Shown here: piece by piece, positions 25,786 through 32,598 of the stretch | Layout of the letters: the number at the start of each line of letters is the position of its first letter | Position numbering within the stretch: position 1 is the stretch's first letter | Source: Nitrospirota bacterium | Lineage (GTDB): Bacteria > Nitrospirota > Thermodesulfovibrionia > Thermodesulfovibrionales > SM23-35 | DNA: 64,000 nucleotides | Direction of reading: 5' to 3' | Assembly: GCA_013388455.1 (NCBI GenBank) | Contig: JACAFF010000028.1 | Coordinates: forward strand, 1 to 64,000 | Position numbers and translations under genes: made by a program | The notes under the pieces: model-generated | What the model was told of the DNA's origin: nothing | The model's database searches: none | Seen by the model: the letters and a program-made list of their open reading frames with translations, nothing else

Positions 25786-28161
25786 ATGAATACACAAAAT
25801 AAATTATTCTTTATTATTCTCCTCTGTTCATGTTCAACACTTGCATATGAAATAACACTTACAAGAATATTTTCAATCTCTCTTTGGTATCACTTTGCAT
25901 TTATGATCATAAGCATTGCAATGTTAGGGATAGGTGCAAGCGGAACATTTCTCTCTATCTTTCCGAAACTAAGAGATGTATCTCTGCTTGGCATCTACTG
26001 TCTGTCTCTCGGAGCAGGAATATCTATCAGCTACATTTTATCTAATCAAATACCTTTTGATCCTGTAAAGCTTGCATGGTCTAATACACAGATATTATAT
26101 ATAGGGTTTTATTATATTACTATCTCAATACCCTTTTTTATAACTGGTTTAATTATTTCTCAATCCCTTTCTTTATATAGCCAGAAGTCAGGTTTAATAT
26201 ACAGTGCAGATCTTATTGGTGCTGGTCTCGGAGCAGTAGGAATTCTTTCTCTTATGTCTTTTACAGCACCTGAGAACAGTGTTTTTGTTCTTTCTTCAAT
26301 TGCGTTGATTTCGACATTTTTTTGTGGATCGAAAAAATTAATAACTATCTCCATCATTCTTATAGGACTAAATATTTCATTAATCATTTTTAATCCTTCA
26401 TTTATGAATATCAGAATTTCTCCATATAAAGGTTTACAAACTGCGCTCAGATATCCAGGTGCAGAACATTTAAAAACATATATTAGCTTTTTTTCAAGAA
26501 TAGATACATTTATAAGTCCTGCTTCGCGCTTTGCACCAGGCTTAAGTTTCAACTATCTTGAAGATCTACCAAAACAGATTGGTTTTTCCATAGACGGAGG
26601 TAATATCAATTCAATTACAGATGTTAGAGATAAATCTTCTCTCAAATTTCTTCAATATCTGCCATCTGCTCTTCCATATGAGACAAGTAAAAAAGGCAAT
26701 GTTTTAATTATTGATTCTGGAGGAAGCATTCAATCTCTTATTGCAGATTATTATGGATTTTCTAACATATATAAGACTGAACGCAATCCACTTCTTATTG
26801 AGATTCTACAAACAGATTATAATGAATTTACCGGTGGCTTATATTCTGAAAATACAAGAACTGGCCTTGCAAGGTCATGGTTAAGGAATACCAATATAAA
26901 ATTCGACGTTATTGATATCCCTTTGATGAGTATTATACCATCGGCTACATTCGGTATTTCAGAAGACTATGGTTTTACTGTAGAGGCATTCAAAGAATAT
27001 ATCAGTCATCTTAAGCCAGAAGGTTTACTTAGCATAAACCTTTTTATCATTCCTCCTTCAAGAATTGAACTTAGGATATTGGATACATCAATAACTGCTT
27101 TAAGTGAAAATGGTATAAAGGATATTGAAAATCATATAGCAACAGTTCGCAGTTGGGATACCATATGTATCTTGATAAAGAAATCTAAATTTTCTTCAGA
27201 TGATATAAAAAAAATCAAGGTATTTACAAAAAAACTTGGATTTGATCTGATTTATTATCCGGGAATTAAAAAAGAAGAGACCAATATCAATATCAGAATG
27301 CTATCTAATGAATATTACACATTGTTCAAAAATCTCATCGATATAAAGACAAGAGACGATTTTTTAAATAATTATTTATTTGATGTCAAGGCTGTGAGGG
27401 ATGACAATCCATTCTTTTACTATTATCTCAAAATCAGATACATAAAAGATATTTACAGGATTATGGGTGAAAAATGGCAGTATTTTATTGAAGAAGGATA
27501 CATTCTTTTAGCAATTTTTATTCAGGTCTTTTTTATGAGTATCATATTTATATTCCTTCCAGTTATAAAATTACTTAAGTCAAGGGATGAAATTATCAAT
27601 AGACATTTTTATATCTTGCCATACTTTGCCTTTATAGCGATCGGATTTATGTTTATAGAGATTACATTCGTTCAGAAAATGATTCTACCTTTAGAAAACC
27701 CTTCTTATGCAATGGCTACCGTAATTGTTTCAATCCTGATTTGTTCAGGAATTGGAAGTCTACTGAGTTACAGGTTTAAAAATCTTCAGAGCACATTCAT
27801 TTGTCTCATCATTACATTTCTTATTATTTATTACAGCATTTTTTTACCTATATTTTTAGAATTTATTCTACCGTATACATTATCCGTTAAAGTTATTATG
27901 GCATTCTTCATTATTATGCCTATAGGATTTTTTATGGGTATACCGTTTCCAAACGGTTTAAAAATAGCTGGTGAGAGAAATATATCTTTAATTCCTCTGG
28001 CATGGGCAATAAATGGCTGCCTGTCTGTCTTTGCACCAATTCTTACAATAATGATTGCAATTGAATTCGGATTCAAACGAGTATTCTGGATTGGTGCTTT
28101 ATTTTATTTTTTAGCGTTTTTGTGCCTCTCCAACCATAGGAACAAAAGAAACAGAACCTAA
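25786..28161 (+). CDS. Membrane-embedded spermidine-synthase-like (aminopropyltransferase-fold) protein
   Basis: A 791-residue polytopic protein. N-terminal membrane helices cover about 1-215 (opening [24 protein letters not shown]), a central soluble Rossmann-like region spans about 230-560, and further helices lie at about 570-790 with the family [10 protein letters not shown] segment. The normal nucleotide glycine motif is degenerate ([12 protein letters not shown]), so methyl- or aminopropyltransfer is uncertain. The family is common in Deltaproteobacteria and Nitrospirota and has no settled function. Its last 51 bases overlap the end of the convergent pcm gene. Confidence 0.75.
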
Positions 28162-28818
28162 TTGTTCAACATCTATAGAACCTTTTTTCTTCGTCATAAG
28201 TGTAAGAGTCTGAAAATAAACGGTGCTACCCAGAGGGACAATAAGTCTTCCACCGTCTTTTAATTGTTTGATTAAAGGAGTTGGGATATGATTAACAGCC
28301 GCTGTTATGATAATCGAGTCGAATGGTGCGTATTCTTCCCATCCAAAATATCCGTCAGCGTATTTAACTTTTACATTATTATAGCTGAGAGTTTTCAGTT
28401 TTTTTGTTGCATTTTCAGCTAAGATTTTTCTTATCTCGATAGTATAGACTTCCCTAACAATTTCTGATAGAACGGCAGCCTGATATCCTGAACCAGTCCC
28501 TATTTCAAGGACTCTATCAGACGGTTTCAATTTAAGTGCCTCTGTCATCAAAGCAACGACGTATGGCTGAGATATAGTCTGCCCTTCTTCAATAGGAAGA
28601 GGATGATCAGCATATGCCTGATTCATTAGACTTTTATCCACAAAAAGATGTCGAGGAATTTTACTCATAACTTCAAGCACTTTCTTGTCTTTAATTCCTC
28701 TTGCCTTAATATCGTGTTCTACCATGGCTTTTCTTTTTGAAGCGAATGGATCAGAAGCAGAAAGTACTGTTGGCAAAGATAATAAAAATAATATAATTAT
28801 AATAATTTTTTGTATCAT
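28111..28818 (-). CDS. pcm: Exported protein-L-isoaspartate O-methyltransferase
   Basis: Repairs isoaspartyl residues using S-adenosylmethionine. The fold is complete: [31 protein letters not shown] (SAM-binding motif I), YTIEIR, and a C-terminal FVPMVGE. Unlike the cytosolic enzyme it carries an N-terminal hydrophobic signal (residues 2-20, cleavage near LSA-SD) before about 30 extra residues, so it is probably periplasmic or membrane-anchored. It lies 28 bases downstream of the DUF1573 gene on the same strand. Its last 51 bases overlap the convergent membrane-protein gene. How SAM would reach an exported enzyme is unclear. Confidence 0.85.
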
Positions 28819-28846: not shown

Positions 28847-29224
28847 CTACCTTACCTCATTAATAAATGCCTTTAACTCGAGTTTAACAAATGGTATTTT
28901 CGGGTCATTTGAAAAAACTTTTACACTTTTTGAGATATAACCCTTTCTTCCCCTTATGTCTATCTTTGCTTTGATCTTTCCTTTTTCTCCTGGTTTTATA
29001 TGGCTCGAACTAGCCATAGCTGCTGTGCAACCTCATTTGGTAAGAAGTTTTTCTATCCTCAGATCCTGATCTCCAGCATTTTTGAATTCAAACGTGTGTT
29101 CTATTTCATCACCTGGAGTTATTTTACCAAAGTCATAGATTTCTTCATCAAACACAATAGAAGGCTGAGAATATGAAATTACAGGGTACAGCAATAGAAT
29201 AGCCAGTATAAATATTTTTTTCAT
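28847..29224 (-). CDS. Exported DUF1573 protein with in-frame TGA: candidate selenoprotein
   Basis: The frame starts at the ATG at 29224 with a signal peptide (MKKIFILAILLLYPVISYS), followed by the DUF1573 Ig-like strands DFGKITPGDEIEHTFEFKN and NAGDQDLRIEKLLTK. It meets TGA at 29033-29035 (codon 64), then continues in the same frame with GCTAAMASSSHIKPGEKG, YISKSVKVFSNDPK and LELKAF to TAG at 28847. In the family this position is the first Cys of a conserved CGCT motif, so the TGA replaces exactly that Cys. A SECIS-like hairpin follows the TGA. Read through, the product is 125 residues with selenocysteine at 64. A plain nonsense mutation is the alternative. Probably co-transcribed with pcm. 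Confidence 0.7.
28992..29032 (-). promoter_or_regulatory. SECIS-like stem-loop directly after the TGA of the DUF1573 gene
   Basis: In the minus-strand mRNA, UAUGGCU (29018-29012) and AGCCAUA (29005-28999) form a perfect 7-bp stem closed by the loop AGUUCG. The apical loop begins 21 bases after the UGA and carries G at its second position followed by U, as in the fdhF loop. GGUU (29032-29029) and AACC (28995-28992) can close a lower stem right after the UGA. Spacing, stem length and loop composition fit the bacterial SECIS pattern as I know it. SelB binding cannot be tested here. Confidence 0.6.
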
Positions 29225-31918: not shown

Positions 31919-32598
31919 AACTTTTAATTTCGATTGGATTTTCATAAAAATATAAAGCCTCATGATACTGAAATAAAAAAGAACCTTCTATTGGTGAATT
32001 ACCGAGATATAGTAATTGACAAAAAAAATCAACTTTTTTCTTGAGAAAAAAACATGAGCATAGACCTTGGTGGAATTGCAAAAGGATATGCTGCTGATAA
32101 AGCTGTTGATATATTAAAAAATAATGGAATACAGGCCGGAATCGTAGCTGTTGCTGGTGATATAAAGGTGTTCGGGCACAAACCTGATGGCAGGGCATGG
32201 AAAATCGGTATAAAAAACCCAGAAGCGATACCTCTAAAGTAAGAATCGATACGAATAGACTGTTAGATGATATTATGGCAACACTTGATATGAGCAACAT
32301 GTCAATATCTACCTCAGGAGATTATGAGCGATTTTTTATAATGAATGGAAGACGCTACCATCATATTCTCTTTCCCCGAACAGGATTACCTGCTAATGGA
32401 TGTCAAAGCGTCAGTATTATAGGCGAGGAAAGCGCCTTAACTGATGCTCTTGCAACAGGGGTATTTATTCTTGGTTCTGAAAAAGGTATACAATTTATGA
32501 AAGAACACGGATTTGAAGGCATTATTGTAGACAGTAATGGCAAAATACATTCTACACCCAACTTCAGAGGTAAACTTGAATTTACGAAAGTTCCTTAA
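31919..32598 (+). pseudogene. apbE: Broken ApbE (FAD:protein FMN transferase)
   Basis: A remnant of ApbE, which attaches FMN covalently to Thr of exported flavoproteins. Three lesions are visible. The N-terminal half including the signal peptide is missing (recognisable sequence starts near 31928). An in-frame TGA sits at 32042-32044 between the NYRDIVIDKKNQ and MSIDLGGIAKGYAADKA segments. A frameshift near 32215-32245 moves the frame from AWKIGIKNPE to ATLDMSNMSISTSGDYERF. The remainder (RYHHILFPRTGLPANGCQSV and on to TKVP) is well conserved, so inactivation looks recent. The TGA here has no conserved Cys context and is treated as nonsense. Confidence 0.8.

Follow-up and report, generated by a model that had tools for sequence, protein, structure and literature searches.

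Selenoprotein gene and genomic context

Analysis of the window, which is the whole stretch of 64,000 nucleotides studied here, led to a gene on the minus strand that starts with ATG at 29224, is interrupted by one in-frame TGA at codon 64 (29035..29033) and ends with a terminal TAG at 28849..28847. The gene, the two elements inside it that are discussed below and the gene that follows it were annotated as listed here.

28847..29224, minus strand: predicted DUF1573 / OS_HP2-type selenoprotein gene, 125 residues with the TGA read as Sec, signal-peptide-like N-terminus (readthrough translation; PF07610; NF041425)
29033..29035, minus strand: in-frame TGA, predicted Sec64 of a U-G-C-T motif, invariant in 30 aligned homologues; Cys in Bacteroidota and in those Nitrospirota lineages that lack the Sec machinery
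28999..29018, minus strand: predicted bacterial SECIS hairpin of 7 bp with the apical loop AGUUCG at 29011..29006, starting 14 nt 3' of the TGA (RNAalifold, covariation, leave-out model)
28111..28818, minus strand: pcm, protein-L-isoaspartate O-methyltransferase, signal-peptide-like N-terminus (NF001453, 264.5 bits, NCBIfam)

A preliminary description of the locus had reported a 125-codon frame with a start, a single TGA and a final TAG, flanked on both sides of the TGA by DUF1573-like sequence, and had placed the TGA at the first Cys of the CGCT motif of that family. Each of these points was confirmed, and the strand (minus), which had been left unstated, is added here. The readthrough product of 125 residues is MKKIFILAILLLYPVISYSQPSIVFDEEIYDFG...LLTK-U-GCTAAMASSSHIKPGEKG...FINEVR, followed by TAG. 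Both of its halves fall within a single Pfam DUF1573 domain (PF07610, residues 23-118, E-value = 1.2e-25), which scores 89.8 bits against a gathering score of 26.1, and at the genome level the DUF1573 match runs across one TGA with 82 bits. Alignment showed that the TGA codon stands for the first Cys of the CGCT motif. The protein thus presents UGCT at residues 64-67, with the UxC motif at the family position, behind a signal-peptide-like N-terminus, in agreement with the exported U-x-C motif that had been proposed. Annotation with the standard code cuts the window protein at residue 63, and such proteins are therefore easily missed.

A gap of 28 bp separates the selenoprotein gene from pcm, which follows on the same strand and is probably its operon partner; in 8 of the 21 sources compared, the window included, a pcm gene occurs in the vicinity. 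Its own signal-peptide-like N-terminus (28111-28818, minus strand) suggests an exported isoaspartate methyltransferase. Elsewhere in the window, adjoining uvrA, a gene at 32054-32598 (plus strand) is split into two overlapping frames of 62 and 133 aa. Clustered relatives show a single frame of 342-370 aa at this place, apparently ApbE-like by eye, which suggests that the split gene is a pseudogene or carries a frameshift.

Recurrence of the TGA among relatives

A match to the protein was found in 64 of the 101 relatives searched, and by row count an in-frame TGA lies inside the match in 59 of the 64, the source genome included. At the scale of the phylum 100 of 296 genomes matched, and the in-frame TGA was present in further Nitrospirota families. 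It is invariant across the 30 loci that were extracted and aligned, and the same codon occupies the same site in independent genomes whose proteins share 45-67% identity. Relatives without the TGA carry Cys (CGCT in six genomes of family f26; CGC in families f20, f21 and f22), and CGCT is likewise found at the Sec site in all 22 Bacteroidota homologues that cover it. The Bacteroidota proteins share the domain and differ by having Cys for Sec. Concerning mobile elements, no relative was found in the viral contigs searched, and the matches listed in the plasmid search were putative Cys-type homologues from Bacteroidota and the like, with less than 40% identity. A selection test on the sequence after the TGA, which had been suggested together with the homologue alignment as a check of the proposal, gave across 377 pairs a median pN/pS of 0.44 upstream of the TGA (mature part) and 0.42 downstream, and the downstream part therefore behaves as translated sequence.

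These data bear on two simpler accounts of the codon. The TGA could have been made by a sequencing or assembly error, a thought that the draft state of the genome (44 contigs) invites, but the identical codon at the identical site in independent genomes of 45-67% protein identity leaves this practically without probability, and its recurrence across relatives and the phylum refutes it. The TGA could also be a genuine stop, as the standard code would have it, with the locus being a pseudogene or encoding a fragment of 63 residues and the downstream frame being a relic. However, the TGA is shared by dozens of species from several families, the downstream codons are as constrained as the upstream ones, Cys occupies the site where the TGA is absent, and a conserved hairpin comes after the TGA, so a genuine stop is highly improbable.

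Two of the aligned loci deviate in their own way. The locus L030 (genome G019) has UGY in place of UGC, and the resolving Cys is therefore not absolutely required, while in L028 (genome G014) another in-frame TGA stands in the place of Gly51, which is invariant elsewhere.

The SECIS hairpin

The stem of 7 bp with a 6-base loop, proposed at a distance of 14 bases after the TGA, was right in coordinates and distances. Its arms pair 29018..29012 with 29005..28999 (minus strand) and close the 6-nt loop AGUUCG; the spacing from the TGA to the loop is 21 nt, and a G is present in the apical loop. RNAalifold, applied to 30 homologues, returned exactly this 7-bp stem and 6-nt loop unprompted. In five of the seven stem pairs both sides change with pairing kept. 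Pairing amounts to 88.7% (80.9 ± 1.1% in shuffles) and there are 22 double-change cells (8.5 ± 2.0 in shuffles); for pairing, double-change cells and covariation score alike, none of the 500 shuffles reached the observed value. Sliding the 3' arm along lowered the pairing to 16-47%. Hardly any variation was seen in the apical loop AGUUC, with AGT as the first loop serine codon in 29 of 30 sequences. Part of the covariation alters amino acids, as Val at residue 71 occurs only where residue 74 is Asp, Asn or Thr. In addition, a SECIS model built from 26 other sequences, the window's own being excluded, scored 72.1 bits at the hairpin, the sole place that it matched in the window; this leave-out model also contains coding conservation and is thus supportive rather than an independent test of structure. 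Judged by this comparative evidence, the hairpin is a genuine SECIS element.

Selenocysteine machinery and decoding of the TGA

The genome that harbors the window holds the Sec machinery, and all four components that the preliminary description had suggested searching for were present. These are tRNA-Sec (73.2 bits; called SeC by ARAGORN), SelB (364 bits), SelA (622 bits) and SelD (379 bits; its own frame contains a single TGA close to the N-terminus). The genes selC, selA and selB are no more than 12 kb apart on one contig (C5). SelD selenoproteins carry their Sec near the N-terminus.

Across relatives, SelB was over the cut-off in 50 of 53 genomes with the TGA and in 4 of 18 without it (Fisher p = 7e-9, which is indicative, the species being related). 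SelB scored above the cut-off in none of the families f20, f22 and f26, and tRNA-Sec at the strict threshold was absent from all ten genomes of these families that were tested. The remaining three TGA genomes, in which a full SelB was not detected (G002, G012 and G137), all have tRNA-Sec. Neither SelA nor SelB was detected in G002, which has two tRNA-Sec genes, or in G137, while G012 has selA as fragments only and no detected SelB; assembly gaps are the likely reason in all three. Mapped on a tree of 60 rows, the Sec/Cys label needs two changes, compared with about 15 in shuffles. Exchange of Sec and Cys thus appears to follow the presence of the Sec machinery across Nitrospirota, which seems to be a new observation. 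In the Cys forms of family f26 the first loop serine is still AGT in six of six and the second is TCC in four, with the stem gone; these raw Ser codon counts suggest a fossil SECIS and with it a replacement of Sec by Cys. Five genomes (G004, G007, G011, G013 and G018) have two or more SelB matches each above the cut-off.

Cys at the site in homologues would also fit a tRNA that gives Cys at UGA, one of several other ways of decoding the codon, along with a reassigned code and readthrough by a near-cognate tRNA. Such decoding is very unlikely in view of the covarying SECIS 3' of the TGA, of the Cys forms occurring mostly in genomes without tRNA-Sec and SelB, and of the genome's own SelD with its in-frame TGA near the N-terminus. 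Frames with a single internal TGA are also few in the window: the scan gave ten with sizeable flanks, the selenoprotein frame included, and the others look by eye like antisense or non-coding frames, or neighboring genes joined at a normal stop. TGA is therefore not apparently reassigned globally.

We thus consider it almost certain, on comparative sequence evidence, that codon 64 of the window protein is decoded as selenocysteine. The TGA would be read by the SelB, tRNA-Sec, SelA and SelD system of the genome, with the SECIS hairpin beginning 14 nt downstream directing the insertion. The selenocysteine insertion proposed for this locus is in this way borne out by the machinery, the recurrent TGA and the covarying SECIS. 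None of the findings named in advance as speaking against it (missing machinery, homologues lacking Cys at the site, an error or decay) was encountered.

Relation to the known DUF1573 selenoproteins

The preliminary description had implied that DUF1573 is novel as a selenoprotein family, which does not hold. OS_HP2 (pfam07610, UxC) is included in the GOS selenoproteome table of 2008 (PMC2398784), and DUF1573 with the motif UGC is listed as a selenoprotein in two reviews from 2022 and 2026 (PMC9312934, PMC13188914), the former of which credits it to the Olavius symbiont study. NCBIfam also holds NF041425, the 'OS_HP2 family (seleno)protein'. DUF1573/OS_HP2 is hence an established selenoprotein family, first catalogued in 2007-2008, and its mechanism of Sec insertion is the standard one. 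The window protein has in common with the catalogued members (symbiotic deltaproteobacterium of Olavius algarvensis, 2007; GOS metagenome, 2008) the domain, the Sec position, the UGC (UxC) motif and SECIS-dependent bacterial Sec. It differs in coming from a different phylum and in its score with NF041425, which covers nearly the full profile length (85.5 bits, E-value = 2.5e-24) and does not reach the curated cut-off of 100; by NCBI's rule, therefore, the sequence is that of a relative of the OS_HP2_seleno subfamily and not of a member. NF041425 matched 27 of 27 aligned Nitrospirota members, with the window protein below the cut-off.

Seemingly new are the wide occurrence of the family in Nitrospirota, its fusion to cytochrome c or SCO1/SenC, the UxxC variant and the Sec/Cys exchange that tracks the machinery. 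In some Nitrospirota relatives, unlike the DUF1573/OS_HP2 proteins of the reviews as far as these are available, the domain is fused to cytochrome c, SCO1/SenC or CarboxypepD_reg, and UxxC motifs occur; no mention of fusions was found in the accessible review text, whose tables give UGC, in a search that mostly covered literature outside subscription and in which DUF1573 was named by three papers. The literature search for Nitrospirota selenoproteins returned nothing relevant. A poorly known selenoprotein family is in this way extended to a further phylum, with strong comparative proof from SECIS covariation and from a Sec/Cys exchange that follows the Sec machinery.

Fold, fusions and putative function

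The AlphaFold model (pLDDT 91.1) has an Ig-like PapD/ASH/HYDIN fold, in which U64-G-C66 sits in a turn between strands 55-62 and 66-70. The best solved structural match is 2qsv (Z 14.2, rmsd 2.7 over 104 residues). With this and other HYDIN/ASH/PapD-like Ig domains (2e6j, 6fvi) the beta-sandwich fold alone is shared; the CGC motif is absent from 2qsv, the only solved sequence relative, which accordingly gives no functional clue.

Functional leads come from the fusions. Cytochrome c is attached C-terminally to both Sec and Cys forms of DUF1573 (L048 by Pfam; L096-L101, L127 and L128 by CxxCH motifs), SCO1/SenC is fused in L130 and L132, and CarboxypepD_reg in L131, L133 and L134. The proteins L130-L134 have the motif U-x-x-C (URAC, UKAC, URRC, URLC) rather than U-G-C, and L134 contains two Sec domains, the second with UKRAT. 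AGTTCG is retained 3' of the TGA in L131, L133 and L134. The cytochrome c and SCO1/SenC fusions and the U-x-x-C forms speak for a function in redox or metal chemistry in the periplasm, and for the U-G-C site of the window protein such a role appears reasonably likely from motif and fusions.

After export and removal of the signal peptide, the protein would fold into an Ig-like beta-sandwich presenting Sec64-Gly-Cys66 in a loop between two strands, where Sec64 and Cys66 may be joined reversibly in a selenenylsulfide or hold a metal ion. Electron transfer is indicated by the cytochrome c fusions, and we tentatively prefer redox chemistry to metal binding, as something that could well be the case. 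That the selenoprotein uses U-G-C mainly as a metal site (copper, mercury or zinc) and not as a redox couple is a possibility to be taken seriously, since the SO_0444 family of Cu/Zn efflux proteins is listed with UxC and relatives fuse DUF1573 to SCO1/SenC, a copper-chaperone family. The domain might serve periplasmic thiol/selenol electron transfer. Since DUF1573 is joined to cytochrome c and to SCO1/SenC in relatives, our preferred guess is that it is connected with c-type cytochromes or with the assembly of copper sites. More speculatively, and with some doubt, the Nitrospirota set of DUF1573 selenoproteins may couple a periplasmic selenol to c-type haem, through the cytochrome c fusions, and also to copper-site assembly of the SCO1/SenC kind. 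Among this set would be a UxxC form new to description and a protein in which both of two Sec domains have a SECIS-like hairpin of their own, and the window protein would be the stand-alone version of the electron-transfer module. In the two-domain protein, L134, the hairpin TCTGCC-AGTTC-GGCAGA was observed behind each of the two Sec domains.
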